Shown here in pieces: positions 14,918 to 38,985 of a stretch of 64,000 bases of DNA. The notes below the pieces were generated by a model, which saw only the letters and a program-made list of their open reading frames with translations, had not been told where the DNA came from and did not search any database. Position 1 is the stretch's first letter. Each line of letters begins with the position of its first letter. The stretch is from contig NC_092804.1 of assembly GCF_040954645.1 (NCBI RefSeq), forward strand, positions 88,711,717 to 88,775,716. Reading direction: 5' to 3'. The stretch comes from Diabrotica undecimpunctata. Taxonomy: Eukaryota; Arthropoda; Insecta; Coleoptera; Chrysomelidae. The translations under genes were made by a program, and so were the position numbers.

Positions 14918-14956
<39 letters not shown>

Positions 14957-17809: not shown

Positions 17810-17926
17810 ATGTTGAAGGGAATAGACGTATTAGTTTTTATGCTAACGTTCACAAGCGTGTTTTGTAACGATTTCTCTAAAAAAGACGCTATTGTATACC
17901 TAAAAAAGTATGAACAAAATATCGAT
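17810..17926 (+). pseudogene. MMP-like gene, 5' part (signal peptide and start of propeptide)
   Basis: The ATG at 17810 opens a hydrophobic signal peptide (VLVFMLTFTSVFC) and then KKDAIVYLKKYEQN. That matches the first helix of an MMP propeptide, where a peptidoglycan-binding-like fold begins 'A..YL..YGY'. The frame is interrupted exactly at the ATCGAT target site by the left TIR of the Polinton-like element. It resumes in the same phase at 37529. The apparent continuation of the ORF to 18043 is read from element DNA. Confidence 0.7.
17921..17926. repeat. target-site duplication, left copy (ATCGAT)
   Basis: Six-base duplication, identical to 37523-37528. Six bases is the usual length for Polinton/Maverick integration. 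The site is itself a palindrome. Confidence 0.85.
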
Positions 17927-18000
17927 AGTAGATGTATATTGTACCTCCAAAATGAGGAGGAGAGACACCTGGCAGTCTGGACAACATCCGGTTTTATATC
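17927..18000 (+). repeat. left terminal inverted repeat
   Basis: 74 bp matching the reverse complement of 37449-37522 with about three differences by eye. It begins with AG, as Polinton termini do. Related motifs ('acctggcagtgaacatccgg') continue to about 18085. Confidence 0.85.
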
Positions 18001-19374
18001 TGCAAAAAATGAGGAGATCTATGACCTAGACACCTGGCAGTGAACATCCGGTTTGATATATATCCCGTGTGCAAAAAATGACCAGCAGGATATTGATTAT
18101 TAAACAATAATTTTAAATGAACTTTTATTCTGGATGGCTGAATTGGACATTAAATAGCCGCAAAAAAATTATTTTAATTTGTACAATTAAGTATAAAAAA
18201 TAAATTACAAACTACATTATCGATAAACATTGATTACTAAACAATAATTTTAAATAAACTCCTTTTCTAGTGAGCTGGATTGTCACAAGGCATGTTAATT
18301 GTATAAAGTAGTTATTCCCGCCAAATATGAAAAAATAATTATTCTCATACTCAGACGGAAATGCAAAAACTATCTACCCGTTCCCAGTGTATAGAGAGCT
18401 CCTTATGTTGCTTAAAAAGTTTGTTTTTAGACAAACATTGCCGGCAAATGAAATGCAATATCCAGTCATATGTTGAGTGACATTTGGCGTAACCACGGCT
18501 TGTTATTACGGAGCATAAAAAATTCATGGTGAATGTATGCAGATATAGCAAGCACGGGACAGGGGCGTCCTAAGATATATTTTGATTTAATAAACCTTTT
18601 AAGCAATCAATTTATGTATTAATATTTTTTAGGACAAAATTGTTTAAAATAACCATGTATAATAAGGTCAACGTTCGCATACGTTGTTTCTGTCTTTTAA
18701 ATCAAACTTATTGAAAAATTATTCAATACAATTTTTTAGCTACATTTTTATTATAATCGCTTGCATGCATTTTTCAATTATTTGGGTATGCTTAAAAAAT
18801 AATCTCTATGACTCAGATATTTATAAAGTGTCCATTAATACATATTTTCAAATAATTGTCAAAAATACTGAAACTAGGCAAAACTGTTTTTCCTTAATAA
18901 CAAATGAGATAAAACAAAAAGAGTAACACATGATATTGAATAGTGTGGGAATTCATTTCTTGGATGCAAATTGCTAGAAAACAGTTGTCGTAAAACATAA
19001 AAGACGTGGGACATAATTAAAAATTTTAACTGAACCCCACACATACTGTGAGAAAATAACAAACACAGTTGGTGGTATTTTTTGTAAAAAATTAAGAGAC
19101 TATGCAGAAACATAAAACGCATAGACTGTGAGAAGAAAAGACATATGGATAATGTTTTTGCAAAAAACAGATATGGATTCAATTCCCACAGTTTCTTAAA
19201 ACAAAGCTTTATTTCAATGGAGGGGTACAAAGCTTACAAACCAAGAGAAACGCAATATGGGCGTGGTGTAGCTATCCCATTGGTTGGTTCCCCCCCGGGG
19301 TTGTACTAAGAAACGGGTGGGATTTTAAAGATTTATAGGACTGATTATCTCCACTCTTTCTCAGTTAACTATTA
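18001..19374. other. left non-coding region of the provirus
   Basis: Contains TIR-related words to about 18085, two copies of an 'acaataattttaaat(g/a)aact' segment (18104, 18244) and AT-rich DNA. ORFs of 60-118 codons here show no recognisable motif, and I do not call them genes. Confidence 0.45.
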
Positions 19375-19418
19375 GTTTTATTAAAATTAGTTCGTACAAG
19401 TTCTGTCTATATTTCAAA
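19375..19418 (+). promoter_or_regulatory. repeated upstream segment of paralogue 1
   Basis: 'attaaaattagttcgtacaa' followed by gttctgtc lies just before the ATG. The same segment precedes paralogue 2 (20075-20102) and occurs inverted at 20896-20935. It is a candidate promoter or transcription-start element; only the repetition is observed. Confidence 0.4.
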
Positions 19419-20057
19419 ATGAAAGTCAAATTTCCAGTACCTGAATGTTCGAAATCAAGTGCAAAAATTATTTCCCATTTTAAAATGTCCCCAAGTGGAA
19501 AAAAATTTACCGAAGTGAAGTTAACCAGTGACAATCGGGGAAAATTTAACGGGATTAACCTAAATTGTCACCGACCCATGGAATATAAGCAATTTGAGCA
19601 GCAAGTTATGGTTTCATCCACCCCAATAATCGACCCAAAATACGATACTGTATCGTCAAAAGATGAAGAAGACCAAGAAGAAGAACAAAAAAAACAAATA
19701 GGTAATGTGTCAAATCTTATTCAAAGTGAGGATTTTATTGGAAGTATGGAAGAACAACAACTCCAAGCTGAAAAAACAGAAGACAACCTAAATGTTACCA
19801 CAAATTATGATAATATTGAGAAAACCGCTAAAACTATAGATGAAGAGTATGAGAGACTAATACAAACATTTGTAACTGAAAATACTCGTTATTTGGAAGA
19901 AAATCAGAGTCAACGACAATTGCTACTTAAGAAAATTAGTGATTACGAGAAAAAACGCGACATTGCGCAAAAAAGTTTGGACAGAGTAAATAAAAACATT
20001 GGCGTATGTAATCAAATTTTGACATCGATCTTAACCTGTAAACCGATGGAGAAATAG
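19419..20057 (+). CDS. uncharacterised coiled-coil protein, paralogue 1
   Basis: An intact 212-codon ORF. The N-terminal 70 residues are basic and Ser/Lys rich (MKVKFPVPECSKSSAKIISH). A Glu/Asp-rich middle follows, then a C-terminal predicted coiled coil of about 80 residues (EYERLIQTFVTENTRYLEEN onward). There is no known domain. It is duplicated in tandem at 20112-20745, including upstream DNA. It is one of the few frames in the provirus with no lesion. A structural or core-like role would be a guess. Confidence 0.6.
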   Translation: MKVKFPVPECSKSSAKIISHFKMSPSGKKFTEVKLTSDNRGKFNGINLNCHRPMEYKQFEQQVMVSSTPIIDPKYDTVSSKDEEDQEEEQKKQIGNVSNLIQSEDFIGSMEEQQLQAEKTEDNLNVTTNYDNIEKTAKTIDEEYERLIQTFVTENTRYLEENQSQRQLLLKKISDYEKKRDIAQKSLDRVNKNIGVCNQILTSILTCKPMEK

Positions 20058-20111
20058 TGTGGCTATTAGTTTCATTAAAATTAGTTCGTACAAGTTCTGT
20101 CAAGTGTAAAA

Positions 20112-20745
20112 GTGAAAGTAAAATTTTCAGTACCTGAATGTTCGAAATCAAGTGCAAAAATTATTTCACATTTTAAAAAGTCCCCAAGTGGAAAAAAATG
20201 TACCGAAGTGAAGTTAACCAGTGACAATCGGGGAAAATTTAACGGGATTAACCTAAATTCCAGTTTTACCGAAGGAGATTTTAGTTTTCACCGACCCATG
20301 GACTATAAGCAATTTGAGCAGCAAGTTATGGTTTCATCCACCCGAATAATCGACCCAAAATACGATACTGTATCGTCAGAAGAAGAAAAACAAATAGGTA
20401 ATGTGTCAAATCTTATTCAAAGTGACGATTTTATTGAAAGCATGGAAGAACAACAACTCCAAGCTGAAAAAACAGAAGACGACCTAAATATTACCACAAA
20501 TTATGATAATACTGAGAAAACCGCTAAAACTATAGATGAAGAGTATGAGAGACTAATTCAAACATTTGTAACTGAAAATGCTCGTTATTTAGAAGAAAAC
20601 CAGAGTCAAAGTGCAACTTAAGAAGATTAGTGATTACAAGAAAAACGCGATAAAGTGCAAAAAAGTTTGGGCAGAGTAAATAAAAACATTGGCATATGTA
20701 ATCAAATTCTGACATCGATCTTAACTTGTAAACCTATGGAGGAAT
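20112..20745 (+). pseudogene. uncharacterised coiled-coil protein, paralogue 2 (decaying)
   Basis: About 90% similar by eye to paralogue 1. The ATG is replaced by GTG at 20112, and a deletion near 20608 shifts the frame, ending the ORF at 20621. The original reading continues in another frame to about 20745. It retains an extra segment SSFTEGDFSFHRPM that paralogue 1 lacks, so paralogue 1 has a short internal deletion relative to it, or this is an insertion. Confidence 0.7.
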
Positions 20746-21410
20746 AGTGTGGATTGCAGTGATAAGAACAATATACAGTTTTATTTTTATATTTGATTGT
20801 AAATTGTTTGTTTAACTATGTAAATTAATAACATTCTGCTTATTGGTTTATTTAGTTAAAGAAACATATTCTAAAATGAAAATTTTACTTTTATTTTGAA
20901 ATATAGACAGAACTTGTATGAACTAATTTTAATAAAATAACATTTTAAACATATTTTTTTGTTTTTTTTTCAACAGACTTCTTTTCTTTGTTTTCTAGCA
21001 GACAAATTACAAAATAAAGCCAACATTTTTGTTAACTTTATTTTGTATTTTATAGGAAACAATTTTGCAAATAATGACCTAATAAAACTCTAATGATATC
21101 TAAAACTCTTACCTAAGAATTACATATATATATATATTCCAATAGTTAATCGATTACACACAAAAACACAAATTAAATTATTTATATAAGTACACTAAAC
21201 AATCACTAAACTTTGCCAGACGCGAAAATTATGTCTTTTAACCGATATTCAAACAAAGACTGCATTTAAAAATAGATTTGATGAACGATGCTGTGCTGCT
21301 TGGTAAAGACACATGAAATTAAAAATAGAATTTTAACACCATAAACGGGCTAAAATTTTTTTAGCTAAATTAATAATTGATTTAAAAATTATTTCTCATT
21401 GTATTGATGA
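20746..21410. other. gap; inverted copy of the paralogue promoter segment at 20896-20935
   Basis: AT-rich. At 20896-20935 the reverse complement of the 19375-19418 segment occurs, without a gene attached. Otherwise nothing was recognised. Confidence 0.5.
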
Positions 21411-22945
21411 AAGTTAAGAGAAGATATTTTGAAATCATAAGGTACAAGTATAGGTCTAGTTAAAACTTGGAAAAAAAATTTTAAGTAATAATTTTTAACA
21501 GGGTAGTTCACCCCTATCCATAAAACTTTTGTCAAAACAATACAATGTTGCACATCAATTAATAGGCAAAAAAAATAACAAAATCAAAGAGTGTAACGTT
21601 TTTGTTTAAAATTTAATACAAGGGGGTTAATTCGTTTTTTTATTTGCACCTAAATAAATTATTTTACACTTTATTTATGAAAACTAAGAGAAGATATTTT
21701 GAAATCGTATTGTACAAGTACAAGTCTAGTTAAAACTTGAAAAAAAAATTTTAAGTAATAATTTTTACCGGGGGTAGTTAACCCCATCCATAAAACTTGC
21801 ATCAAAACAATACAATGTTGCATATCAATCAATAGGGAAAAAAATAACAAATTCGAAAATGTGTAACGTTTTTGTTTAAAATTTAATACAAGGGGGTTAA
21901 TTTGTTTTTTTTATTTGCTCCTAAATAAATTATTTTACACTTTATTTATGAAAACTAAGAGAAGATATTTTGAAATCGTATTGTACAAGTACATTAAAGT
22001 AGCATTAAAGGAAGCGGCTACAAAAATGGGTTTAATAATAAACACCAACAAAACAAAATACATGAAAATAGGTACGCAACCACAAACACTACGGCCACTT
22101 GTTATAGAAAATGACGTCATCGAAGCAGTTAACGAATTTGTATACCTGGGAACGCTCGTCAATACTGAAAATGACACTACCGCAGAGATAAACCGCAGAA
22201 TTTGCACGGCTAATAGATGCTATTTTGGGCTTAATCTCCTTTTTAAATCTACAGTTATATCAAGAAATACAAAAGTAAAACTCTACAAAACAATAATACG
22301 CCCAGTCCTAACATATGGTTCAGAAACCTGGACTTTAACAAAAAGCAATGAAAACATGTTAGGATGTTTCGAAAGAAAAATACTAGGGCGCATCTATGGA
22401 GCGGTAAATGAAAATGGTGTCTGGAGAAGACGATACAACTTCGAACTCTATAGGATATACCAGGAACCAGATATCGTAACACACATAAAGATAGGACGTC
22501 TGAGGTGGGTAGGCCATGTAATGCGGATGGAGCAAACCGACCCAGCTAGAAAAACGCTCCTTGATAGACCTATTGGTCAAAGAAGAAGAGGAAGACCCAG
22601 AACAAGATTCCTAGATAACATAGACCAAGATATGAGAAATATGGAAATACGTGCTTGGCGGAGGAAGGCGATGGATAGGGACGACTGGAGAAAAATTCTT
22701 GGGGAGGCTAGGACCCACACAGGGTTGTAAAGCCAAAATGATGATTGTACAAGTACAGGTCTAGTTAAAACTTGAAAAAAAAATTTTAAGTAATAATTTT
22801 TACCGGGGGTAGTTAACCCCATCCATAAAACTTGCATTAAAACAATACAATGTTGCATATCAATCAATAGGGAAAAAAATAACAAATTCGAAAATGTATA
22901 ACTTATTTGTTTAAAATTTGTTCAATACAAGGGGGTTATTATTTT
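21411..22945 (+). repeat. three tandem ~270-bp repeats, third interrupted
   Basis: Units start at about 21411, 21681 and 21952 with 'aagagaagatattttgaaat' and contain 'gggtagtt(c/a)accc' and 'aatacaagggggtta'. The third unit is split by an RTE fragment (21994-22744) and resumes at 22745. Repeat content is AT-rich and non-coding. Confidence 0.8.
21994..22744 (+). mobile_element. 5'-truncated RTE-like retrotransposon insertion with 13-bp target duplication
   Basis: The segment is flanked by identical 'ttgtacaagtaca' at 21981-21993 and 22745-22757. The interior ORF (to 22730) is the C-terminal part of a non-LTR reverse transcriptase: GLIINTNKTKYM, VNEFVYLGTLV, PVLTYGSETWTLTK, GRLRWVGHVMRM and RRGRPRTRFLD. 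It ends about 15 bp before 'aaaatgatga', the short microsatellite-like tail typical of RTE elements. The reading frame is intact over 240 codons, so the insertion looks recent. It postdates the provirus. Confidence 0.85.
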
Positions 22946-22981
22946 TTTTATTAATTAAAAGGGAATGAAATTAAAACCTTT

Positions 22982-23455
22982 TTATTGTTGTAGATTTATA
23001 TTATTACAAACAATACAATATTTGGATAAACAGTAAATATACAAGTTTTTATTGCAACACATACAAATATGTGCACTCAAATCACTGACCTTTCCACTTG
23101 AATGTTCTGTGGGGACATATGATGGCACTCCGCTTACAGTCTCAAAAAAACAAGAAGGACAAAGACTTGTGTTGTCAATCACATAATAATATTCTGTTTT
23201 ACATACTGGGTAACCGGTTTCATATGACAGAAATCGCACGTTGTTCACATTGTTCAGTTTGTTCTCTACCTCCGCGGAATCCGTATCTAAAACTTCACTG
23301 TCTTCCATGTCTGATAAATTCTCAGTAGATACCGAAAAAACAAAACTTCCATCAGTGGAGACATTGTCACTATCTTCAGCTTCATATGGCGCTATGGGAT
23401 CCAAAAGATTTACGTCTGCTTCAACCATTTCTTGGTTTTCATTTTCTAGCACCAT
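22982..23455 (-). CDS. acidic protein with Cys-rich (zinc-binding) C-terminus
   Basis: 157 codons. The N-terminal half is acidic and Ser-rich. The C-terminal half has paired cysteines: VCKTEYY, CPSCFF, HICMCCNKN and CLSKYCIVCNN. The spacing suggests a treble-clef or RING-like zinc site, but it does not match a canonical RING. It lies between the tandem repeats and the internal TIR-like repeat and is transcribed leftward. No lesion was seen. Confidence 0.45.
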   Translation of the reverse strand: MVLENENQEMVEADVNLLDPIAPYEAEDSDNVSTDGSFVFSVSTENLSDMEDSEVLDTDSAEVENKLNNVNNVRFLSYETGYPVCKTEYYYVIDNTSLCPSCFFETVSGVPSYVPTEHSSGKVSDLSAHICMCCNKNLYIYCLSKYCIVCNNINLQQ

Positions 23456-23520
23456 TTTGATATTATCACAAAGATTATAAATGCACCAGTTTATATATTT
23501 TCAAGTAGTATAAAGAGGGG

Positions 23521-23890
23521 GGTTAGTGCCATCTGCTCTTTACATCTAAAAATAGCTCAAGGGTCAATTAACTGGATATCCGTTAGTCTAGACAGTATCC
23601 TGTCTAAAAATAACTCAAGGTTAATGAACAATATCTAAAAATAGCTGAAGGTCAGCGACCTGAGCATCTGGTGTGTCTAGACAATATTTGGTCCAAAAAT
23701 AACTCAAGGTTAAAGACCTAGACATCTGGTAGTGAACATCCGGTTTGATATATACGTTATAAAATGAGGAGGAGGTCAATGACCTGTTAGTCCAGATAAC
23801 ATTTAGTAATAGGGTGGGGGGAATATATGATATATTGTGTGCAAAATGAGGAGGAACATCTGGCAGTGTGGTAATAGTGGACAGAGTAGG
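23521..23890 (+). repeat. internal copy of the terminal-repeat motifs
   Basis: Contains 'aaaaataactcaaggttaa' and 'gtgtgtctagacaatat', plus 'gaacatccggtttgatata' and 'aaaatgaggagga'. These are the same words as in the right terminal region (reverse-complemented) and the left TIR. Its orientation matches the left end. Confidence 0.75.
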
Positions 23891-23931
23891 GAGGGTAGAA
23901 AAACGTGTATAAGAACCCGAGACTTGCACAC

Positions 23932-24676
23932 ATGGATCATAATTTCAAAATGAGTGCTACATTTCGAAACGTATTTTTGGGTGAACGCCGGTTTTACCTG
24001 AACCCATCGAACTCAAAATTTGTTTCTGTTTGTCTAGCACATGAATTAAATTTTGAACCGGTAGTTGTTATCAGTGGTAACAAACAAGATCGGGTTTTAT
24101 TTAGTGAACCTGAGTGGTTGAACTTTTTATCACATAAATGTGCAATTGACAGTTTTATGGCAGGGAATCCCCAACAATTGATTCACGATGGTAAAATACA
24201 ACTAGAGTTCATGCAACTACCCCACATGTCAGTTGTGAAAGTTACCAATGGCGAGTCACAGATAATTTTGGGTGCAAACTCCATTGCATCGCTGTGGATA
24301 ACACTTCCAATAATTAACTACCATTTGGAAATTTTGAAAAAGGAAAACTTTATCAGTTCCTTTAAAATACTAAAGACGGGAATTTATTCAAATAATGCAA
24401 TTGAAACTGGGCTGAAAATAATGGAACCAATAAAGAATATACATAGAGCAACTTATGGTATGGCGCTAGAGTTAATTCATAGATATCCAGAGCTACTTAA
24501 TGATCAAATTTAATGAAAATGTTTGTATTCACTACATTGAAGCAACTTGTTCGTGCAGAGCGAGGTACTGGGAGTTTGTGGCTGCTGACAGAGTAAGATT
24601 TCAACGAAGGATAAAAGAACTTGCTAAAATTATTAATCCTGTATTAGACGTAAGCCATAGAAATAAATACATGTAA
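23932..24676 (+). pseudogene. uncharacterised provirus protein (possible PC4-like fold)
   Basis: The ATG at 23932 (or 23950) starts a frame open to 24513. The run NSKFVSVCLAHELNFEPVV and the later EPEWLNFLSH faintly recall a PC4-type single-stranded DNA-binding domain; this is weak. Just before the stop, the +1 frame continues with coding-like sequence (IHYIEATCSCRARYWEFVAA...) to the TAA near 24676. A single frameshift near 24505 therefore probably truncates the protein. It is followed by the BIR frame. Confidence 0.45.
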
Positions 24677-24820
24677 AAAATTGAATATATTAATTTACCA
24701 CACTTTCCCCTTCCACTACAGAAATAAATTATTTAAGTTATATGTAGCAGAATATCTTTTAAAAACTAATAGTCACTATGTGTCTAGAAGATAAGTCAGA
24801 AACTGAATAATTTTTATTGA

Positions 24821-25237
24821 AGGTTATCCACATTTAAAAACTGGAGGGGATTGGTTCCTTCGGTTGAGTTAGCAGTATATGGATTTTATTATCTACAAAA
24901 AGAAGATATTGTAAGGTGCTTTTGGTGTCATGTAGAAATTTATAATTGGTTATTTACTGATGATGTTTATAAAGAACACATCAAATTCAGTCCAAACTGT
25001 AGTTTTGCACAAACAATTTACTCCAAATTTTCCAAGTGCCAGAAAAATTATAAATCAACACCAGACGTGAAAATCGAAAACAAATTTCCTAAGTATCAGA
25101 TTAGTAAAGACATAAAAACCAAAAAGAGTCAACTAACAAGAAATACAAATTTATATCTAAATGTGCTTCTCAGTTTGATGCATTTTGTCTTTTTGTTATT
25201 GAGTATTTACATAAGTAAAAAAGAATGTAAAATATAA
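24821..25237 (+). CDS. BIR-domain (IAP-type) protein with C-terminal membrane segment
   Basis: The open frame contains one complete BIR repeat. STFKNW begins its first helix, GFYYL precedes the metal site, and RCFWC, then EHIKFSPNC give the CxxC-x16-H-x6-C zinc ligands. IAP-family BIRs bind caspases or IAP antagonists; many insect viruses carry such genes. There is no RING. Instead a hydrophobic stretch (LLSLMHFVFLLLSIYI) ends the protein. No ATG precedes the BIR: a TGA lies at 24818-24820, so the 5' end is lost, frameshifted or spliced. Confidence 0.75.
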   Translation, partial: RLSTFKNWRGLVPSVELAVYGFYYLQKEDIVRCFWCHVEIYNWLFTDDVYKEHIKFSPNCSFAQTIYSKFSKCQKNYKSTPDVKIENKFPKYQISKDIKTKKSQLTRNTNLYLNVLLSLMHFVFLLLSIYISKKECKI

Positions 25238-25413
25238 ACCAATATTTAGATGTAAACAAAACTGTGTGCATGTTTAATTATTTAGCCTATTATATAAAAA
25301 AAAATAAAACATTTTTTTGTAAAAAACAGTTTTTATTTTAATACTATAATACATATTTTTTATTAATCCATGAATTATGTGTAAAATCCATCCCTAACCA
25401 TTTCACAAACACC
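25238..25413. other. convergent intergenic region
   Basis: AT-rich spacer between the rightward BIR frame and the leftward integrase. Several AATAAA-like words could end both transcripts. Confidence 0.4.
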
Positions 25414-26270
25414 TTATTGCCCTTTTTTTTTCAATACCTTCTCCACCAAGTAGACATCAGGGTACTGGGTTTTCCTTAATTCTTCGCTGTAAAACGCTCC
25501 TTGAATTTCTTCTTTGCGTGAATCTTCTAATAAGTAAGTCACTGGATTTATCTGCTTGACTTTTCTTATTTTAAAAATCTCATTTGTCCAGTTGGGCAAA
25601 TAACCCTTAGTAAACAAATTTCTATATCTCGAAATTCGGACGTGATCACCAACTTTAAATTTATGTTTCCTGGGGTCAATGATTTTAAGGTAATTATATG
25701 CAGTTATATTCTTGGCATTCTTTTCATTAACTTTGCTAGGAATGGCACCTGTAGTCGAATGTTTGGTATTATTGTATTTTTTACTATATCAGAAAGATTA
25801 TTCACCCATTTGTGAGTCCCCTGCAAGCTGAACTGCCTCCACAACATCGATTTTATTGTTCTGATTACTCTCTCAGCAAAGGAGGCTTTTAAATTCGAGA
25901 ATGTGCTGTAGTGTTTAATACCATGTGACTTCATAAGTTCATGAAACTGAGAATTGTAAAACTCTTTACCCAAATCTGTTTGAAGGTTTTTTGGTGGCTT
26001 CTTCATTTGATTTAAAATTTTTTTCATGGCTTTAGTAATTTCAGTCCCTGTTTTTCTTTTAACAGGTTCGGCCCACACAAATTTACTAAACGCAATAATT
26101 ACAATGAGAATATATTGGTATCCATTATTAACTTTGGCATAAGGAATCATTATAGCTAAATCTGCTTGAATCAGATCGTTTAATCCTTTGATGATTACAT
26201 GTCTCCGTCTAAAATTTTTTTTTGCCGGTTTATGCAGTTCATGTACGACTTGTGATTTAATGTTTGACAT
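25414..26270 (-). pseudogene. retroviral-type integrase (DDE) of the Polinton-like element
   Basis: The catalytic core shows all three acidic positions: QADLAIMIPY (D), NLQTDLGKEFYNS (D) and LKASFAERVIRTIK (E). This is the rve-type integrase typical of Polintons. A 1-base indel near 25790 shifts the frame. The C-terminal part (YNYLKI..., KFKVGDHVRIS, GYLPNWT) continues in the second frame to 25414 and resembles the SH3/chromo-like tail. The N-terminal zinc domain is not visible. The enzyme would insert element DNA with 6-bp duplications, matching the ATCGAT seen here. Confidence 0.8.
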
Positions 26271-26667
26271 ATTTTTCTAAAGGACAACGAAGGGTCATAT
26301 ATACCACAAAATTCGAATCTTTATCTAATTTAAAAGAAATTATATCACCTTGAAAAATCTTTACTCCTGGTAGCTGCTCATATTTATACTCTGTATTTAC
26401 TGATTTCGAGGTTATCATTACTTCTCCACTTGAAACATTAATTTGCACATTGTCAATAGTACCACTTAGTGTAAATTGATATGAAAATAAACCACTATCC
26501 AATATATAATATTCTTTGTTCAGATTTGTTGCTTTTGTTCCTTTGAAAGTTAATACACATTTACTATAAAAAGAAGAAGGATCACACACAAAATATAATG
26601 GATGGGAAGATGAATCAGGAGTTTGAAAATTGTTTAAAAAATGACTTCCAAATCTATTTATAGGCAT
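26257..26667 (-). CDS. uncharacterised Polinton-associated protein (MPINRFG family)
   Basis: 136 intact codons starting MPINRFGSHF, a start I recall from insect Polinton ORFs. It is mostly beta-strand-like with alternating polar residues (GTIDNVQINVSSGEVMI). It overlaps the integrase start by 14 bases and touches the next upstream gene at 26667, so these are probably co-transcribed leftward. A small virion protein (for example a fibre or cement type) is possible but unproven. Confidence 0.5.
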   Translation of the reverse strand: MPINRFGSHFLNNFQTPDSSSHPLYFVCDPSSFYSKCVLTFKGTKATNLNKEYYILDSGLFSYQFTLSGTIDNVQINVSSGEVMITSKSVNTEYKYEQLPGVKIFQGDIISFKLDKDSNFVVYMTLRCPLEKYVKH

Positions 26668-27818
26668 TACTGTATTATACCACCTTCTCGAAGTTCTTCA
26701 ATTATAGATATAATTTCATTCACGTGTCCGTCGTTACCCGCAGCTTTTGAAGCTACTAGCAGTCTCAATCTATCTATGAGCTCATTAAAATCATCGAAGT
26801 ATTTATACTCTAATTGCTTGGCACTATATTTTTTGAAAAGCGCACCACCCTTTGTTTTTAAATTTTTAGCTAAGTTTCGGGTAACAGTGCCTTTTGCTAA
26901 ATTTCCGGGGAGTGAACTTAAACGACTTCTAAATGGTTGGGGTCTCGTTTCCAAAGCTGGTTTAATAATAAAATTATATTTATCCTTTATTTTTGATGGA
27001 ATACTTTTTATAGGCAATTCTGGGTTGTGGTTTCTATAAATTGCATTTGTTCTACGTAAAATATCAATATACTCATTAACATCTGTTTTTTTAAACGATT
27101 GGGGGTTTACTTTAAATAGTAACTCATAAAGACCTGGCGTTCCCTTCTATCTTATATTATTAATAATTAAATCAGCTCCATCAAAATCAATTAAGGAATT
27201 TCCAATAGAAAATTTTTCAGTTTCCAAGTCATGATAAACCCCTAAGTCATGATCGAAATCACCTTTTGTGTCTTCGATGTTAGCTTTAATATATTTCTTT
27301 GGCAATGGTGAAGTATAATTCTCATAAAATTGATTCATTATATCTGGATTAGTGATCATCTGATTAAATTCTCTAAGCGTATCCTCAAAATATCGATTAA
27401 TATTATCATCCGTGGTATTCGTTTGTTCTTCTGACTCAAAAGTTTCTTCTGGTTGTGGTGTGAATACTTCTTCCGTTGGAATAATAGATTCATCTCCAAA
27501 ATTAGTAGGTGTTTTTGACCCCTCAGGGAGTATACTTGTATTTGGGGAAGAAAAGGCTAAACGATAATTAGATTTTCGCATTTTATACCTTTTTGGTGAG
27601 CCTAATTTCAATGGCTTTTGAAACGAATACTCTGGTTCTTGTTTAATAGATGGAGCGGTTTCTAGTTTATGCAAAAGTTCATTAAGTGGTTGAGTAATTG
27701 GTTTATAATTTTTTTCTAAAGCAGACTGAGACTGAACTATGTCATGTTTTAAACTACGATACTTTTTCTTTAAAGCTTGTCGTGATAAAAGCAGTTTTCG
27801 CGTAACTTTGGGATCCAT
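26667..27818 (-). pseudogene. uncharacterised Polinton-associated 383-codon protein, one nonsense codon
   Basis: The ATG at 27818 opens a helical N-terminus (MDPKVTRKLLLSRQALKKKY). An acidic middle region follows, then a single in-frame TAG at 27147-27149. The same frame immediately continues with KGTPGLYELLFKVNP and runs on to 26667. The GTPGLYELLF block is, from memory, conserved in insect Polinton proteins. Only that stop breaks the frame. Position between ATPase and integrase suggests a structural or morphogenesis role. Confidence 0.6.
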
Positions 27819-27839
27819 TGTGTATTCTAAACCCCGTTT

Positions 27840-28567: not shown

Positions 28568-28568
<1 letters not shown>

Positions 28569-28620: not shown

Positions 28621-28621
<1 letters not shown>

Positions 28622-28630
28622 AGGCAGAGT

Positions 28631-29281: not shown

Positions 29282-29309
29282 ACCTTCGTCATCACGCTTT
29301 AACAAATAA

Positions 29310-29490: not shown

Positions 29491-29614
29491 TGGTTCTAGT
29501 TTTTTCTCACATACCAAAAACATATATAAGGAGATTACCTTCTAAAATAATAACATCATCTAATCGTCGCTTCTTACAATCGTTAGGATTTAAAGTCCTG
29601 GTATAAGGGAAATT

Positions 29615-30850
29615 CTTCATGTTACTGGTCAACCTTTTAATGACAACACCATTGAAGAATATCAGTTTCACACATATCAACCATACATTCCTGGACAGTT
29701 GGGTTATAACGATGAAATACGTATTCCTATTCAAGATCTAGATGCATTTACATACCCCGGAAATAGTTATCTTTATATCGAAGGACGTTTACTCACGCAT
29801 GATAATAACATACCAAAAAAATTAAAATTTATTAATATTAGTATAGCTTTCATGTTTCGCGAACTACGCTACGAACTAAATGGGGTAGTAGTTGACTCAG
29901 TACGTGATGTAGGATTAGTATCCAGTATTAAAAACTATCTTAGTCTTAACGAAAACCAAAGCTTGCAATTAGAAAACGCTGGTTGGTTTCCAAAAATGAG
30001 TAGAATGGAAACCAATAATGAAGTTCCCAAAAACAGTGTGTTGGTGGATTCAAATGGAAACTTTAACGTGTGCATACCTTTAAGACTCCTATCAGGATTC
30101 TTTGAAGATTTCAGGAAAATTATTATGAACATGAAACAAGAATTAATACTAATTAGATCAAATGATGATATTAATGCTGTAGTCAGCATAGATGAAAGCG
30201 AACGACCAAAAATTGATATTAGTAAATTATATTGGGAGGTTCCACATATAACACCGAGTATACGAGAACAGATACGACTTAACAAGATTTCACATACAAA
30301 TCAAGAATTACCTATCAAATTTCGCTCTTGGCAAATGATTGAATATCCTGCTCTAAACAACTCTACCCGCCATACGTGGTCTGTGCGCACTAGTACGAAA
30401 ATAGAAACACCTCGTCACATCATTGTTGCTTTCCAAAATAACAGAAAATCGAAATTAACAAAAGATATGAGTAAATTTGATCATTGCACTTTAAAAAATA
30501 TTAAAGTATTTTTAAATTCTGAAAGATATCCCTATAATGATCTACAATTAGATTTTAAAACAAATAGATTTGCGAAACTTTATGAAATGTTTGGCAATTT
30601 CCAAGAAAGTTATTATCATATGGTGCTGAATCAACCAATATTTAATCCTTATGACTTTAAAATGATTGCACCACTGGTACATATTGACTGCTCTCGACAA
30701 AAAGAAGTAATTCAATCAGGATCTGTGGTGTTACGTATAGAATTTGAGACAGATGAGCCAACAACCTCTAATATCTCCGCTTATTGTCTGATATTACACG
30801 AGAAAGAATTTACATATAATCCCTTAACTAAAATAGTAAAACAATTATAA
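29615..30850 (+). pseudogene. Polinton-like capsid gene (double-jelly-roll-like), copy 2
   Basis: Over 400 codons. No ATG lies at the start: the frame opens after a TAA near 29592, and an earlier segment (FLQSLGFK) is in another frame. Diagnostic segments are IPGQLGYNDEIRIPIQD, GNSYLYIEGRLLT, FRELRYELNGVVVDSVR and AYCLILHEKEF. I recall the YIEGRL family as double-jelly-roll-like, the major capsid candidate. The body of the gene is free of stops, unlike copy 1. Its C-terminal half matches copy 1 across about 200 residues. Confidence 0.7.
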
Positions 30851-31081
30851 AAAATATTGATATTATTAGATGGACAGGTTGGCTTTTTAATATATTTTTA
30901 TAATGAGATAGGTATTAAGATTTAATTACATCTAATGAGAGACTTTTCCGTATGAGGTCAGAAGTACATTATGTATGAAGATGGGTGGCCGCTATAGCAT
31001 TATATGTGAACCTCTCACATGCGCATGACTGAAATTGTTTTATAAATGCAAGTTAGATACCATACAAAGACAGACTTTAAC
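30851..31081. other. spacer between capsid-like and DIQGF genes
   Basis: No gene. It may hold the promoter of the DIQGF gene. Confidence 0.4.
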
Positions 31082-31528
31082 ATGTGCTTAATAATAGATG
31101 TACAAGGTTTTAACACCGAGAAAAATAAATTTATCGTGAAAGAGTTGGCGACTTATGATGGCGAAAAAATTAGTCATTATTTTCTCAAACCTCCATATCC
31201 ATTGAGGTTGCCGAATCCAGAGTTTCATAAACAAGCTGTTTGGTTAATGAATAATCACCATGGTCTTAACTGGAATAACGGATTTACCCCGGTACATCAA
31301 GTTCATGATATTATTCGATACTTGACAAGTAATGTCGATATCGTTTATGTCAAAGGAAGAGAAAAGGCTCAATATATAAGAAAGTATAGTTTAGTACCAG
31401 TTATAGAGTTTGATGAACAACCAGCCTTGGAGATAATGGAGCCAAAATGTCCATACCATTTAAATAATAATAGTGTATGTGCTTTATCTAATGTATTTTA
31501 CTTATACAATAATTTTATTATGCAATAA
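31082..31528 (+). CDS. 'DIQGF' protein, copy 2 (unknown function)
   Basis: Start chosen at MCLIIDVQGF because copy 1 starts at the same place; an in-frame ATG exists at 31046. About 148 codons, intact. It includes KFIVKELATYDGE, a HYFLKPPYP box and WLMNNHHGLNWNNG. The pattern of an early acidic residue in a strand (IDVQGF) plus later His and Asp residues is compatible with an RNase-H-like nuclease fold, but I cannot support that further. The conserved position after the capsid gene in two elements argues for a virus-related role. Confidence 0.55.
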   Translation: MCLIIDVQGFNTEKNKFIVKELATYDGEKISHYFLKPPYPLRLPNPEFHKQAVWLMNNHHGLNWNNGFTPVHQVHDIIRYLTSNVDIVYVKGREKAQYIRKYSLVPVIEFDEQPALEIMEPKCPYHLNNNSVCALSNVFYLYNNFIMQ

Positions 31529-31611
31529 AATTTTTTTTTCTTACATAATGTTTTATTTAAGCAATAAAAATACCTTATTAAAAAATAATACTTTATTAAT
31601 AATTACTACAT

Positions 31612-32068
31612 TCAAACAATATAGTTGTTATCTAAATTTTCCAATGCAAACCTACATAAACGACAACTTAAACGACAACTGGATTGAGCAGGGGCGAATC
31701 CTTCTAGCTCTGTTCTCCATTCGGGGCGATTGAAGTGTATAAAACACGGAATTCTAATCTGTACTTTAAAATCCTGAACCACTTCGACGGGTAATTTATC
31801 CCAGGACCGAAGAATTTCATATGGTGACACATATTTTCTAATGTACGGTATGGTAAAGTTTTCCAACTCTGTTTTTGTAAACATGTACAACGGTTTTTGT
31901 GGGTGTTGATTCATTACAATTCTTTTCTGACAACATTCCATTATTGTTAAAACGGTTAATGTTTTTAAACACCAAGTCTATCCACTTTTGCTCCTCGACT
32001 TTAGAAACAAAAAATAGTCTATTTTCTTCTTCCGGTGAATAAACTCTTCCACTACGCAAGCACATCAC
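31612..32068 (-). pseudogene. uncharacterised Polinton-associated protein (LRSGR start), frameshifted
   Basis: The first frame (31838-32068) begins MMCLRSGRVYSPEEENR. A second frame (31612-31941) continues with FTKTELENFTIPYIRKYVSP, SWDKLPVEVVQDF and ends with a Cys-rich run (SCRLSCRLCRFAL). They overlap, and one indel near 31940 probably splits a single gene. I recall LRSGR-type openings from insect Polinton ORFs. Function is unknown. Confidence 0.4.
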
Positions 32069-32255
32069 TTATACTAAGTCGTGAAAAGTTTTTAAACATA
32101 CAAAGTTTATTTTGATATTCACTTTTTAATTGGTTAATACTTTTCTGTAACTCTTTAACATTCCTTGATTTTTTGTAAAATAAAATATCGCGTTTTATTC
32201 TTTTTATATCTGTATAAAACTGCTCAACTCGTTCACGTAACCTTCTTGAGTGCAT
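32052..32255 (-). CDS. small basic coiled-coil ORF
   Basis: 67 codons, strongly helical and basic (RIKRDILFYKKSRNVKELQK). It overlaps the start of the downstream leftward gene by 17 bases, which suggests coupled expression. Function unknown. Confidence 0.35.
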   Translation of the reverse strand: MHSRRLRERVEQFYTDIKRIKRDILFYKKSRNVKELQKSINQLKSEYQNKLCMFKNFSRLSISDVLA

Positions 32256-32657
32256 ACTGTTTACAATAATGAGCTTTCAGTACTCTTATATTCTCTCTAC
32301 TCTCATTGACACCGGATGCAGATGTGTTGAGATGCACTCCCCCCCATTCCTAACGGTATAGTAACACTAGACTGTTCCGCGTCAGGTCTAGTAAACTTTA
32401 TTAGCTGAAAGTCCTCCACTCAAACTAAAAAACTTGTCTTATTTGTCTTATTTGTCGTAAAATGTCTGGAACTAGACTTATTCCAATAAACTTAATATTT
32501 AAAGGGTGGAAATTGGTGTTTGAATTTTGTAAATTTTGTAGTGAGACTAAACCTATGGGATTATCTCATCGAAGAGTAGGTTATCGTGATGGATTAATGG
32601 AATCCCCACCACATAAATGGGACTCCCCACTCCCTTTGTTAGATTTACTATAAATAG
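32256..32657. other. gap with a doubtful 63-codon ORF
   Basis: A rightward ORF at 32462-32653 (MSGTRLIPIN...) shows no recognisable motif and may be chance. A C-run (32340) and GC-richer words lie here. A promoter for the membrane-protein ORF is expected in this stretch. Confidence 0.3.
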
Positions 32658-33161
32658 ATGCTCAAAATCTGTATAGAGATTATTAAGATGATATTATTAG
32701 ACTTTATTGTTTTACAAGCAATTGTAAGAAATCTGCTTTTAATCCAACAACCCATCAATGTCAGGGAAGTTTTTGTATGCTTTGAGAGTAATGGCACACT
32801 AAATGAAACATGGCCTCAGACATGGTCAAGAATGAAATCATATCCAGGAAACGATTTTTTACCAACTTTACAAGCTGAAATACCATTAAACAGCACTAAA
32901 TATAAATTGCGTTTTAGACATATGAGTGGTAGAAGCAGTGACTCCAAATGGTTGGAACTTTATAATGAAAGACCTAAGAAGGACACAGTCATATCTCCAA
33001 TATTTTATTATATAGCTTTATGTTCGACTTTTTCAATAATTACGGTATTAATAGAATTGTTTAAGGTTTTAAATAAAAAAATTTGTTTATATAGATGCGT
33101 TTTATTATTACAAATAAATATACAATTATTTTACACAATTTACAAGTATGAATCATATTGA
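32658..33161 (+). CDS. putative small membrane glycoprotein
   Basis: 167 codons with a hydrophobic N-terminus (MILLDFIVLQAIVRNLLLI). The central region has N-glycosylation-type sites (NGT, NET, NST), and a C-terminal hydrophobic segment follows (FYYIALCSTFSIITVLIELF). The layout suggests a secretion signal or anchor, an ectodomain and a transmembrane helix. Its last 22 bases overlap the 3' end of the convergent polymerase gene. No homologue was recognised. It could be an envelope-like or cargo protein, but nothing proves it. Confidence 0.4.
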   Translation: MLKICIEIIKMILLDFIVLQAIVRNLLLIQQPINVREVFVCFESNGTLNETWPQTWSRMKSYPGNDFLPTLQAEIPLNSTKYKLRFRHMSGRSSDSKWLELYNERPKKDTVISPIFYYIALCSTFSIITVLIELFKVLNKKICLYRCVLLLQINIQLFYTIYKYESY

Positions 33162-36100
33162 AAAGAATCAACCTGAAAAAATTCTTCAAGGGGGATCTTT
33201 TCTAAATCGGCTAATTCCGGGGTGTGTAGCAGCTCATTCCCAAAAATAATAAGATCATCTATAGTACCATTATGTGATTTAATTAAAAAATGCCCCCACG
33301 CAAGAGTTTTTACGTCACCGTTTATTACATAGCGTTTGTCATCCTTCGAAGATAGTGCCACTTTATTTCTAAGTTCCGTATATATGGTATGTAAATTAGA
33401 AACAAATACATACATTTTTCTAAAGATTACACCATCTTTTTTTACTAATAGTACATAATCACTCATTTGCAACTGTGTTTTGGTTACGTGTTTTGAAATG
33501 CCTTTTGCTTTTTGTATTATTTTATTTGCTTCTATGCAATAAGCTTTAGCACCTGTACCATAAAAACTTTTAATGGGTGTAGATGCAAATTCATCTTTCA
33601 TTTTTCCTAGTATTGAAGGTGTTTTCGGTATCCCGTGAATATTATCAGTTGGATAGTTGGAGGTGTCGAAATGTTCTATATTTCTTTTCATGTCCTTATA
33701 GAAATTAGAGGTATATATTTCCATAATCAGGGAGTCTGTGTCTGTGTATAACAAGTTTGCAGTTTCCCCATACTTCTTTTTTATATATCCATAATAAAAA
33801 TCATATATCACTGTTTTTGATAAATCTAAAATTGTAAATCCAACATAGAGAGGCTTATCGTAAACTATTTTGGTTTTACCCAAATGAACCGCAACCAAAT
33901 TTTCATTAAACACAGAACAAGACTTGAATTCTGGTTTCGAGATAAGTGTCCCAACGAATTTGTTTTTGTTTCCCAGCGAGTACAGAGGCGGATATCCTTC
34001 CTTTTTTCAACATTCTCCAAAGTTTCCCGAATATCGCATTATTCAGCAATTTAAAGAGATCCCGCTCAAACTCGTTTTTGGCTTTGTTTCTAAGTGATGT
34101 ATTTAGGTCAATATATTTTTTTAGCCATGGTGATTGCGAAAACTCTAGTATACGATGAATCCTTTTTAGTACCAGACCATACTTAAGATACTGTTTAAGA
34201 TTGCGATAATGGATAATGTATTTAGTTTTATTGTTGAGATTTGGTATAAGTTTAGGATATTTGCTTCCTGGTGGTACCATGCTTTCGGGGCAGAATGGCA
34301 TATCGTCCGCATATATATCAACATATAGCCTTTATTCGCATCATCCTCCACCGAAAAACAGTTAAAATTTTCAGCATCTGTTACCCATTTAAAATTTCCA
34401 TATGGAAGATATTGACACATGGCCGCACCATATAAATTTGCAGCATCTAGATATATGATGTAAGACTCGGGTTGTTGTGGATCATAATTGGGTAGATATC
34501 GATTATTTGCCACGGCTTCTCTTTTGCTACATTGTGCCACTCCTCCTCTTACTCCTTTCTTTAAAAAGTGTACCATGTCGACATCGGTAAGAAGCTCTAG
34601 TTCAATTTTGGTGTATCTTAACATAGCATCCCAACTTAATGCAGGAGCAGTTATGTAGTGACAAGGATCCAAATTGTATTCTTTGTGACATACTTTCCTA
34701 AAATTTTGAAAGACATCAGCCAATAATAAGACATCTGATATTAGGTACAACATAGCATAGTCACTCATAGATTTACAATCAAGTGTGTTCCATACATCAA
34801 TTGCTCTCGCATAATCTTCATCAGAAATGTGTTTGTTAGTTAGATTATTGTAGAAATTTTCTTTAGGTGGTAGTGTTTTTTCTTTAAGTCTGTCAAATCC
34901 ATCCATATATGAATAAGGAAACACACCCTTGTGTCTCACAAGTTCAAAGTGTTTAGTATCTGGGAAATACTTTTTAATTTCTTTACACTGCTCCGAGTCT
35001 AAAGTTGTGCTCAGAATATCCAGAGATTTTGCCAAAAATCTAAATGAATCAACAAATCTCAGAGTTATGTATTTATGTGGACCCCTTTTCGACTCTTCTA
35101 CGAGTATTTTTTTAGAAATTGTGATATATTTTTCTTTGGTCTGTGCAATTACTGACACTTGTTCACCAGTTGTTGAAAGCTCTTTAACAAAAAGATGACA
35201 ATCATAATTACTCATATTGTGAAAAAACACAGGTATTGTATTTGAGAGTTTGTAATTTATATTACATGAATTATGAGCGGGTCCAAGATATTTTGAAGTT
35301 AAATGATGATGATCTCTTACCTTATGATTAAAAGGATTAAATGGCTTCCCACACAAGTAACACTCGGTAGCGCTTTCATGTTCTTTAATTTCTTCTTTTG
35401 TTAACGGTGACATTGGTTTAATATGTTTAAGGTGATTGTTATATAGTTCATGTACTAAATCATCCAATTTCTGGATAAACACCTTTGGGGCATCCTTTCC
35501 TTCATAATTTATTAGTCTTGAGAGTGAATCGTCATAGCTGCATTTAAGATAAAATGCAAATGAATATGCTTGGTGTTCAGCTGTTTTAACAAAATATGAA
35601 TTTCCACTAAAAGGTTCGGTGCAGTCTATGGGCTTTAGCAAACTTTCAAAGTCCGCATATATAACAAATGGCACTGGTAACATTTTTTGAAAATTGATAA
35701 ATTTCAGTATATTTTCTGGTCCTATTTCACCAAGCTTATTAATTTTAGGTTGTGTTGTGGGAAGTTTTGTGTAAATATGTGAACAGTCGCTCTTTTGGTG
35801 ATTATTTAGGTTTTCTTCGCTAACAAAGAATTGTAGACATCCATCACATAAGTATCGTTTGCGATGGTTTTTTGTTTTTTGACTTCTTACAAGTCTCGAC
35901 ATGTCTAAAATCAGACAATAATGACTTTGTGTATCATTTGTGATAAGCAAAAGGTTCACATGAGTGGCATGGCGATTACTTGTAAAATACAGTGGCCCAA
36001 CTATTTAATATTGCCGTTTATTAGTTACAAAATTAGATTCTAGCCCATAAACATTTACTGAAATATTATTAAGAGTCTCAAACTTTTTAATGTCTTTTAG

Positions 36101-36844
36101 TTTCATCGGAAAGTCAATACCTTCAAAATTCAACAAAGTATCGTATGGTGGATACGATTCTGGTTTGGTTGGGTTACCAGAGGCAGGAAAAACAGCTGCA
36201 ATAACACTCCACGCAAAACACTTATTATCTTTGTTTTCTATATTTAAAATAGCGTGTTTTCTTGCTAAAGGTGTTGGGAGACGAATATACGTTGATGCAG
36301 AAATACTACTAAATTTGTTGATGTTAACATCTAAAAACATTATTTCCTGTAATACCCAATTTGAATCTTTCTCTTGAAATTCTGAGGCTTGTGTCATCAG
36401 TGCTTCCTTAAAATCAGCAAATGCTTCATCCAGTTCAGTGCTGATAGATATAATTTTATTGCGTGTGTTCATGGACTTGATATCTGATAGATTGGTGTCA
36501 GGTTTTAGATAAATAGCAAATATTTCAAAATTTACTTTAATCGTATTGTGCTGATGTAGATATTCACTCAAGATGCTTAAAAGTTTGGGTTTAACATCTT
36601 CTAAAAATCTATAATAATCCAGTTTCTTATCACTATTAAAACGATAAGATGCAATTCTGTTTTTAAACGCATGTGTCAATTTTGAAACAGTGCCATCTAT
36701 TACTTCCAAATTAAGCGGTCTTAATCTTTTTTTGGGAATATAATAATCCCCATTATGGTCATTATGACCATTCACATTTCTGTATTTACATGTTTTCATA
36801 TGTCGCGACAAGTTATCCGAGCGCGAAAACGATTTATTGCACAT
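33140..36844 (-). pseudogene. protein-primed-type DNA polymerase B of the provirus
   Basis: From the N-terminus at 36844: a C2H2-like finger (MCNKSFSRSDNLSRHMKTC), a Polinton-specific region, then an in-frame TAA at 36005-36007 with the same frame continuing. Next, a second finger (YLCDGCLQFFVSEENLNNH) and the 3'-5' exonuclease: VIYADFES, FFHNMSNYDCHLF and LISDVLLLADVF. Motif A is YLDAANLYGAAMCQYLPYG. A deletion or frameshift at about 34318 precedes the region with FERDLFKLLNNAIFGK (motif B). A further shift at about 33990-33906 precedes LLYTDTDSLIMEIY (motif C). At least three lesions exist, so the enzyme is not made as read. Confidence 0.85.
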
Positions 36845-36899
36845 ACTAACTACTGAGGAGCCCCCACCAATTTGCCTTAAATATGTTATGTGAATATTA

Positions 36900-37448
36900 A
36901 CCCCTCCATGTTATTTTAGACGATGGTAATCGAATGCTATTTTTAGACCGGATATTGTCTAGACACACCAGATGCCCAGGTCGCTGACCTTCAGCTATTT
37001 TTAGATATTGGTCATTAACCTTGAGTTATTTTTAGACAGGATACTGTCTAGACACGCAAGATGGCTAGGTCACTGACCTTCAGCTATTTTTAGATATTGG
37101 TCATTACCCTTGAGTTATTTTTAGATCGGATATTGTCTAGACACACCAGATGCCCAGGTCGCTGACCTCCATTTATTTTAAGATATTGGTCATTAACCTT
37201 GAGTTATTTTTAGACCGGATATTGTCTAGACACACCAGATGGTCAGGTCACTGACCTTCAGCTATTTTTAGATATTGGTAATTAACCTTGAGTTATTTTT
37301 AGACCGGATATTGTCTAGACACACCAGATGGTCAGGTCACTGACTTTCAGCTATTTTTAGATATTGGTCATTAACCTTGAGTTATTTTTAAACCGGATAT
37401 TGTCAAGCAGATGTACAGTTCATTAACCTCCTTATATTTTGCACACTG
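36900..37448. repeat. tandem ~120-bp repeats inside the right terminus
   Basis: About four and a half units of 'ttaaccttgagttattttta', 'gaccggatattgtctagaca', 'caccagatgg(t/c)caggtcactgacc' and 'ttcagctatttttagatattgg'. They extend the right terminal region inward from the TIR. The left end lacks this array, but related units lie inverted at 23521-23890. Confidence 0.9.
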
Positions 37449-37522
37449 GATATCAAACCGGATGTTGTCTAGACTGCCAGGTGTCTCTCCTCCTCATTTT
37501 GGGGGTACAATATACATCTACT
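37449..37522 (-). repeat. right terminal inverted repeat
   Basis: Reverse complement of 17927-18000 with about three mismatches. It ends ...ACATCTACT immediately before ATCGAT. Confidence 0.85.
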
Positions 37523-37528
37523 ATCGAT
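37523..37528. repeat. target-site duplication, right copy (ATCGAT)
   Basis: Identical to 17921-17926. MMP reading resumes in phase at the next base. Confidence 0.85.
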
Positions 37529-38985
37529 AATACTACAGATTTCTCTACTTTGTTAATTACCTTCCAAGAAAGGTATAATTTGCCAGTAGATAGATTGCTT
37601 AATAATGCAACAATAGAATTTATGCACCGTCCGCGTTGTCAACACAGTGATAACGAATTAAGAGTAAGTTCTCTATGGCAGAAACATCACCTGCGATAGT
37701 TATTTCCTCAAAAACAACGGTTGATGCACAAAAAGATGCAGAAATGGCTTTTCAGATGTGGCAAAATGTTTTAGACTTAACATTGACAATGGTTACAAAT
37801 CCTACTCTAGATCCTCCTGATATTACCATAGCTATGGCTAGAAAAACTCAGTATTTTAGATCAAATTGTATGGGTAATGATAAGTGTCCGAGTAAAGTAG
37901 GGCATGGTATTTTAGGACATTCATATTTTCCTGATCCCACCGGTACATGTAAAGAAATCCATTTAGATATCGACCAGTCCTGGCATTTTGGAAATGATTC
38001 TAATATACCCGAAGGCCGTACCAGTTTTCTTACGGTATTGGCTCATGAAATTGGACATGCTCTCGGCATTGGTCATAGTGATACTCCAAATGCTATGATG
38101 TATAGTATAATGTCTATCAGAATAAGATTACGGTTCTACATGATGATGATATAAATGCAGTACAATTTCTATATGGGGCTAAAAATAAAATAAATATGCC
38201 ACAATCCCAAGGCTTACAACACCAGCAACTACAAGACCTACAACGCGTAAGCAACCGATCGGACCAAGGCATACACCAACAACAGCTAGCTCAACAACGT
38301 CAAGACCTACAACTCGAAAGCAGCCGATCCTCAAAAATTTGTGTGACATTGTTCCCGATTTTATGTTTCTAGCCACTGCTCCAGAATTTTCAAATTACCG
38401 ATTATATATTGCTCATGATAAGTTTATATGGAAACTAGACTTGAAAGAAATGATTATTCCATCTCAACCTGAACTTCTTGCTGATTATATTCCTACAGAA
38501 TTACGTCAATACACTTTACAACACATTTTTCAAACAACAAATGGTGATTTGGTTACAGTTGTATCTCCAAACAAATATTTCTCAGCATCATTCCCTAGTA
38601 TTCTATTGATAATTTTCCACTGAATATACCCAATAAGGCTCACATCAATGCTATTTTTCAATCAAATGCTGGACGTTCCTATACATTTTATAATAATATG
38701 TCATATATAGAATTTTCTAATGATTTTACTAGCAAGTTACAGAGAGGACAGATAAAAGACATATGTCCTGGAATACCTGAAGATATTTCTCTAGCACTTC
38801 GATGAATTAATGGCCATATTTACTTTTTCCGTCAAAATACTTACTATAAATTTAATGAATTTACAAGAAAAGTTGTTATGGCTGGAGAATTTAGCACGAA
38901 TCTATTTGGAGTGCCCTGTCCAAACGAAAATATCTTACAACAATTAAAAACTCTAATATCTAAACTTGTATCTGTATATAATTAA
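37529..38985 (+). pseudogene. MMP-like gene, 3' part (propeptide, catalytic, hemopexin)
   Basis: The first frame carries the rest of the propeptide (FQERYNLPVDRLLNNATI) and a degraded cysteine switch (RPRCQHSDN). After a frameshift near 37695 comes the catalytic domain: TTVDAQKDAEMAFQMWQNV and VLAHEIGHALGIGHS (all three zinc His and the Glu), with the Met-turn NAMMY. A second shift near 38115 leads to DDDINAVQFLYGA and a Gln-rich hinge. Then come hemopexin-like segments (CDIVPDF..., DICPGIPED, INGHIYFF, YYKFNEFTRKV), with a TGA at 38803-38805 where Trp is expected. It ends at 38985. No introns are present anywhere. Confidence 0.8.

Follow-up and report, generated by a model that had tools for sequence, protein, structure and literature searches.

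Polintons (Mavericks, adintovirus-like elements), as described by Barreat and Katzourakis (2021; PMC8097293), commonly encode a DNA polymerase (PolB), a retroviral-type (rve) integrase, an A32-like packaging ATPase and a double jelly roll (DJR) capsid protein, and commonly have terminal inverted repeats (TIRs) and perfect 6-bp target duplications. The end motif reported in that account is (AGT)2, and particles of animal Polintons are described there as not having been observed. The rve integrases of such elements are known to make a 6-bp staggered cut, which is then repaired (PMC12220804; PMC8097293). In betabaculoviruses (granuloviruses), a matrix metalloproteinase (MMP) is thought to contribute to virus spread, and crossing of the basement membrane has been proposed (PMC4192325). 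Mobile elements lying inside a gene of a polinton-like virus have been described among the endogenous polinton-like viruses of cryptophytes (PMC12220804). The present analysis concerns 64,000 nucleotides of the leaf beetle Diabrotica undecimpunctata (NC_092804.1, positions 88,711,717 to 88,775,716), hereafter the window, in which a Polinton interrupts an MMP gene. It is very probable that two Polintons are nested at this locus, a member of one family having inserted in the MMP cargo gene of an older, decayed Polinton of a different family.

The inner element occupies positions 17927-37522 of the window (19,596 bp), as defined by its TIR pair, target duplication and gene set. The left TIR (17927-18000, plus strand) has the tip AGTAGATG, and the right TIR (37449-37522, minus strand) is likewise 74 bp long; they lie exactly where an earlier model-made description of this DNA, the sequence-only reading, had placed them. 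The two are identical at 71 of 74 positions, and the element begins and ends with AGTAG...CTACT. The tip AGTAGA is near the (AGT)2 motif, and the TIR, unlike those of the Polintons described in PMC8097293, is only 74 bp long. Outside the TIRs stand two copies of ATCGAT, at 17921-17926 and 37523-37528. Since ATCGAT is its own reverse complement, it might equally form the terminal six bases of a TIR, and a target duplication cannot be proved from the window copy by itself. An 80-bp TIR ending in ATCGAT, with no duplication at all, would account for the inverted-repeat arms as computed, which include these six bases.

Other copies of the inner family speak to this point. A search of the beetle's own genome with the left 149 bp of the element gave 40 matches. 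Twenty short stretches around other ends of the family were taken, of which ten made up five TIR pairs, and duplications were read on these pairs only. All five start at AGTAGATG, and each is flanked by a perfect 6-bp repeat of its own (AAAATA, AACAGA, AATCCT, CAGAGC and CAAAAT), so that a perfect duplication is present in all six TIR-paired copies examined, the window copy included. From base composition, two 6-mers would match by chance in about 5e-4 of cases per copy. Within copies the TIRs differ at 3 (window copy), 2, 2, 1 and 3 positions, and in the last at 2 positions plus 2 gap columns; the copies range from 18.8 to 35.6 kb, and in one on contig C1 the terminal similarity extends across the entire 250 bp compared. 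The differing repeats, together with related empty sites carrying one ATCGAT or ATTGAT, refute the reading without duplication, and the chance that the six bases belong to the TIR is negligible. The pairing of TIRs in five further copies also bears out the sequence-only reading, which had made their co-occurrence elsewhere a test of itself. Its remark that borders defined to the base are unusual did not survive, as other copies in the D. undecimpunctata genome have exact borders too.

The interrupted gene lies on the plus strand in two pieces. The 5' piece (17810-17926) encodes the signal peptide and the start of the propeptide, and the 3' piece (37529-38985) the remainder of the propeptide with the switch PRCQHSD, the zinc site HEIGHALGIGH, a linker and a hemopexin-type C-terminus, these last three lying in other frames; the 3' piece shows no intron. 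As had been claimed, the reading frame halts at the left ATCGAT and resumes in phase past the right one; because 6 is a multiple of 3, phase cannot distinguish zero, one or two copies of ATCGAT and is uninformative on their number. The protein matches Peptidase_M10 (E=4.1e-23), and its longest catalytic frame is at 37654-38154. Downstream of the insertion the gene is decayed, the frame being broken in several places so that similarity to intact relatives switches frames.

Each flank of the MMP was aligned separately to 35 stretches (L113-L147) from 32 distinct places, L142-L144 repeating L117, L129 and L119. The two flanks adjoin in 29 of the stretches, or 26 of the distinct places. In L113, L114 and L116 their alignments overlap by exactly six bases, as in an unoccupied target, with a single ATCGAT in L116 and a single ATTGAT in L114. 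In 25 stretches one base separates the alignment ends, and in L140 three, because the left alignment ends at 17916 or 17914 in those stretches. A strict motif pattern for a single target matched only 2 of 29 loci, and the flank alignment is the test relied on. The same genome thus contains related empty sites, which add to the evidence for the duplication, and the insertion in the propeptide, with both borders exact, stands as first described. An intron at this position, which the sequence-only reading had named as an explanation that would refute it, was considered and rejected, since related MMP loci run uninterrupted through the insertion site.

The sequence-only reading had implied that the MMP was a host gene. 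Gene sets and TIR-bounded elements elsewhere in the genome instead place it as cargo of a second, older Polinton lineage. A genome search was made with the MMP catalytic piece, and its counts refer to the best 150 of 277 candidates; a search with a PolB piece from L147 gave 151 matches, 150 of them listed, from the best 150 of 825 candidates scored. Among the matches listed, at least 53 of 150 MMPs have a PolB within 10 kb, in two geometries only: in 40 cases PolB lies 5' of the MMP, divergent to it and 3.5-4.4 kb away, and in 13 it lies 3' of the MMP, convergent with it and 2.7-3.1 kb away. On contigs longer than 2 Mb, 48 of 135 MMPs stand beside a PolB; random placement, repeated 200 times with each contig taken to extend to the largest coordinate seen on it, put 0.35 there on average and never more than 3. 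Along C8:94182100-94190797 an ATPase is followed by a 26667-like frame, an integrase, an MMP and a PolB, with Polinton genes on both sides of the MMP, and in L144 a PolB-like frame follows the MMP on the same strand.

Downstream of the MMP, all four copies compared from one family break off sharply at the same sequence, ...CTATCTACT, and diverge beyond it. A search with this end returned 54 matches; 30 were judged pairable and yielded 15 TIR-paired elements. Six of these contain MMP and PolB, three PolB only and six neither, which are lower bounds among the matches listed; the counts were the same with a short hand-picked list and with all 150 + 150 listed places. The six elements with both genes are 17.6-18.2 kb long. 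Perfect 6-bp duplications were found in 8 of 10 TIR pairs read at base level, and many TIR-bounded copies have terminal repeats that are 97-100% alike. The MMP-carrying family has PolB, rve integrase, ATPase, TIRs and the duplication, with integrase, ATPase and PolB read on different copies.

In the window itself, the MMP begins about 420 bp from an outer PolB on the opposite strand (15289-17394, minus), which is broken. This PolB is 50-70% identical to that of L147, which stands divergent beside an MMP; the first 336 or so residues of the L147 frame have no counterpart in it. At the DNA level it is 90-92% identical to L150, which lies beside the related MMP of L116 (C8:81967185), again with PolB divergent to the MMP. 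An outer major capsid protein (479-1678, plus, in two frames) shares 28.5% identity with its inner counterpart. An integrase, a 26667-like frame, an ATPase and a PLA2 gene lie immediately before the window begins, ordered and oriented as they are in the inner element. We class the outer element as a decayed Polinton relative, solely by this gene content.

There is another way to account for the MMP, namely that it is a beetle gene or retrocopy adjoining a Polinton remnant, and that the inner Polinton struck a host gene. MMPs are, after all, animal genes, and several results weigh on that side or against nesting. Among the matches listed, 97 of 150 MMPs have no PolB within 10 kb, and 9 of the 15 TIR-paired elements hold no MMP. 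The two TIR pairs that lack a perfect 6-bp repeat both carry an MMP, the repeat being present in 4 of 6 such carriers. No Polinton gene was found in the 5 kb upstream of the MMP in L142 and L143, nor any PolB in about 3-4.5 kb upstream in the relatives L113, L114 and L115 (L148, L149, L151), so that of the four closest relatives only C8:81967185 (L150) has an upstream PolB. No outer TIR pair was found when upstream stretches were searched against the window, with nothing at E 0.01 and otherwise chance-level matches. On its left the outer element passes into an inverted duplication with a TA repeat in the middle; on the right, homology to relatives ends at 39064, with further shared pieces reaching 40147. 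The lack of a nearby PolB in three of four close relatives, together with the two failed duplications in MMP carriers, lowers our confidence slightly. A host gene is hard to reconcile with two strict PolB geometries in 53 of 150 matches where about 0.3 of 135 would be expected at random, with Polinton genes on both sides of an MMP on C8, with six TIR-bounded elements containing both MMP and PolB, or with the sharp common end in all four copies compared. For the MMP family as a whole this explanation is largely refuted, and for the window we consider it very unlikely.

The nesting of one Polinton in another can be chance, as hundreds of PolB candidates in 1.74 Gb offer a target. Nothing resembling the Polinton or MMP queries was found in the flanks of the other five inner copies (about 200-300 bp outside), so that Polintons do not show up as preferred targets, and none of the other inner copies examined sits in a recognisable Polinton gene. 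Among the MMP matches listed, none falls inside any of the six TIR-paired inner copies.

The inverted duplication upstream of the window on C2 (L109:1-8488, L110:7075-10000) affects the integrase-to-PLA2 half of the outer element; its arms are about 5.7 kb, their aligned pieces are 88-95% identical and the TA repeat lies at the centre. A near-perfect palindrome is present at 13958-14970, with 503-nt arms that are 98% complementary and a 7-nt spacer, and related sequence occurs in L111. Elsewhere on C3, two open MMP frames stand head to head (C3:58950296, minus, and C3:58953005, plus), their matches 2.3 kb apart with tandem repeats between them, and a PolB-like frame follows one of the MMPs on the same strand. 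In L118, L120, L136 and L138 a 28-residue PolB-like piece (71%) lies immediately upstream of the MMP.

The gene content of the inner element agrees with the Polinton assignment first made for it: PolB, a retroviral-type integrase, a DJR capsid protein and an A32/FtsK-type ATPase accompany the TIRs and the 6-bp duplication. From the left, it contains two related frames (19329-20057 and 20085-20621), a LINE-like frame (21867-22730), and frames at 22982-23500 (minus) and 23899-24513 (plus). The middle holds a gene with a BIR (inhibitor-of-apoptosis) domain (24821-25237, plus; PF00653, 1.7e-18), the integrase (25414-26276, minus; rve PF00665, 2.7e-12) in two overlapping frames, four small minus-strand frames, the ATPase (28095-28568, minus), a PLA2-domain protein (28541-29281, plus; PF08398, 1.7e-12) and the DJR major capsid protein (29594-30850, plus; PF21738, 2.1e-97). 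To the right are a frame at 31046-31528 (plus), two small minus-strand frames, a frame at 32658-33161 (plus), PolB (33140-36910, minus), subterminal 89-bp repeats and the TIR. The short ATPase frame scores 2.3e-4, with 21.1 bits against a cut-off of 22.8, and is 45-46% identical to the ATPases of L145 and L146, the latter of which matches Pox_A32 above its cut-off (3.9e-8). A Pfam scan of a PolB of 1106 residues missed the polymerase domain, and the C-terminal part alone revealed it. The inner PolB is broken into overlapping frames and matches DNA_pol_B_2 (1.2e-11 on 34169-35206, above cut-off); by sequence it would belong to the protein-primed type class, with priming itself predicted. The capsid frame is open and 91% identical to P0001, a D. 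undecimpunctata protein cluster of 29 sequences. No Pfam match to an adenovirus-type protease or penton was found among the inner frames searched. A scan of viral contigs with the inner capsid protein gave no match, and one with a capsid alignment matched stretches and no relative. The element is an ordinary Polinton. It had been described as decayed, which holds for PolB and the integrase, both in overlapping pieces; with the capsid frame open, decay is only partial.

The 89-bp tandem repeats (36938-37404, 5.2 copies) have an inverted copy at 23586-23718, and in our reading the repeats look like degenerate TIR core sequence. As the inverted copy stands 5.6 kb in from the left end, sequence may have been inserted between the left TIR and what was originally the left subterminal region. 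The frames at 19329-20057 and 20085-20621 are tandem and 76-81% alike in amino acid sequence. Frames that we read as LINE-like reverse transcriptase/RNase H are found at 9148-10815, 21867-22730, 45464-46730 and 49921-50517; RVT_1 is matched only at 45464-46162, weakly and below cut-off. An open frame of 661 residues with DUF7869 (60656-62641) is perhaps a mobile-element gene.

Relatives of the MMP were found by protein search in Diabrotica, Acanthoscelides obtectus, Phaedon, Psylliodes, Exocentrus and others, with A. obtectus accounting, by given names, for 23 of the 120 listed. In a tree of 37 rows, a group of 26 (support 100/100) comprises rows from this genome and other beetles, unnamed contigs and one ant row (P0177). 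It stands apart from vertebrate, mollusc and granulovirus MMPs, beetle Mmp1/Mmp2-type genes not being among those sampled. The granulovirus relative P0209 (E=2.8e-13, 31% identical over 58% of the query), which like the present MMP is a secreted-type matrixin and is carried by an insect DNA virus (PMC4192325), falls outside the group on a very long branch, and its placement is unsure. Scans of viral contigs with the MMP piece gave no match, those with alignment A1 matched stretches and no relative, and those with alignment A3 returned only distant matrixins, with segments at most 43% identical (best 80 of 155). The gene models P0129, P0134 and P0147 fuse parts of an MMP catalytic domain to sequence from other mobile elements: P0134 is assigned PF13359 and P0147 PF13843 in Pfam, and we read the start of P0129 as piggyBac-like.

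Whether the MMP does anything for its carrier bears on a further alternative, that it is captured, passive cargo hitchhiking without function. Its position differs between Polintons, so that more than one gain or move must have taken place, and the fused gene models point the same way. The ratio of nonsynonymous to synonymous substitution (dN/dS) is 1.22 in one nearly identical intact pair, at dS of about 0.006, which favours passive carriage, and 0.52-0.74 in ten pairs involving the broken copy L141; both figures weigh against the main reading. In the four informative intact pairs dN/dS is 0.25 (dS 0.36), 0.38 (dS 0.12), 0.31 (dS 0.06) and 0.28 (dS 0.07); distant pairs are saturated. Open frames of 490-570 residues are present in 94 of the 150 matches (at least 450 residues in 100), and stops within the matched stretch in 12. 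Intact relatives have a signal, a propeptide with cysteine switch, HExxHxxGxxH and a hemopexin domain, by motifs and Pfam; of 6 proteins scanned, 3 match hemopexin above cut-off. All eight intact frames retain HExGHxxGxxH and the PRC of the propeptide. Against this conservation of frame, motif and sequence, passive cargo seems unlikely.

Most probably, then, a Polinton of an older family, with an intronless, secreted-type MMP beside its PolB, inserted at this locus and subsequently decayed. Later a copy of another Polinton family, which has no MMP in the copies checked, entered the ATCGAT of the MMP propeptide, duplicating those six bases and splitting the gene; this relative age is inferred from the nesting. 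The retroviral-type integrase presumably made the staggered 6-bp cut whose repair left the duplication. MMPs in general are held inactive by a cysteine switch. The cargo MMP would probably be secreted in this inactive form and may serve the element as a protease. By analogy with granuloviruses, it would most likely aid particles or infected cells in crossing basement membrane or in spreading between tissues.

Unlike the Polintons described in PMC8097293, the outer lineage and many of its relatives carry an MMP. In the cryptophyte case the nested elements, as described in PMC12220804, encode reverse transcriptase; here a Polinton lies inside a Polinton. Literature searches joining Polinton with matrix metalloproteinase, or adintovirus with metalloproteinase, found nothing, with subscription papers outside the search and absence unproven; searches naming Polinton and metalloprotease, and wider ones, returned, among the papers listed, none about such cargo by title. 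The terms MMP, hemopexin and metalloprote- are all absent from a 2024 preprint that deals with gene transfer by animal viruses. What is new in these findings is the existence of Polintons with a secreted-type MMP, a cargo in no paper searched.

These results have a practical side: gene models in Diabrotica and Acanthoscelides that are of this type and named MMP, stromelysin, matrilysin or hatching enzyme may be mobile-element genes. They also touch on the nature of animal Polintons, which could be transposons or particle-forming viruses. A secreted protease of the extracellular matrix has no evident use for an element that moves only within nuclei. It is possible, and we put it forward tentatively, that a large group of Polintons in leaf beetles, mobile until recently, has a functional secreted MMP under selection, an arms-like cargo comparable to baculovirus MMP. 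This would imply that these Polintons do more than transpose, leaving cells and spreading through tissue as virions. Selection on the MMP cargo, if true, would be evidence for an extracellular stage.

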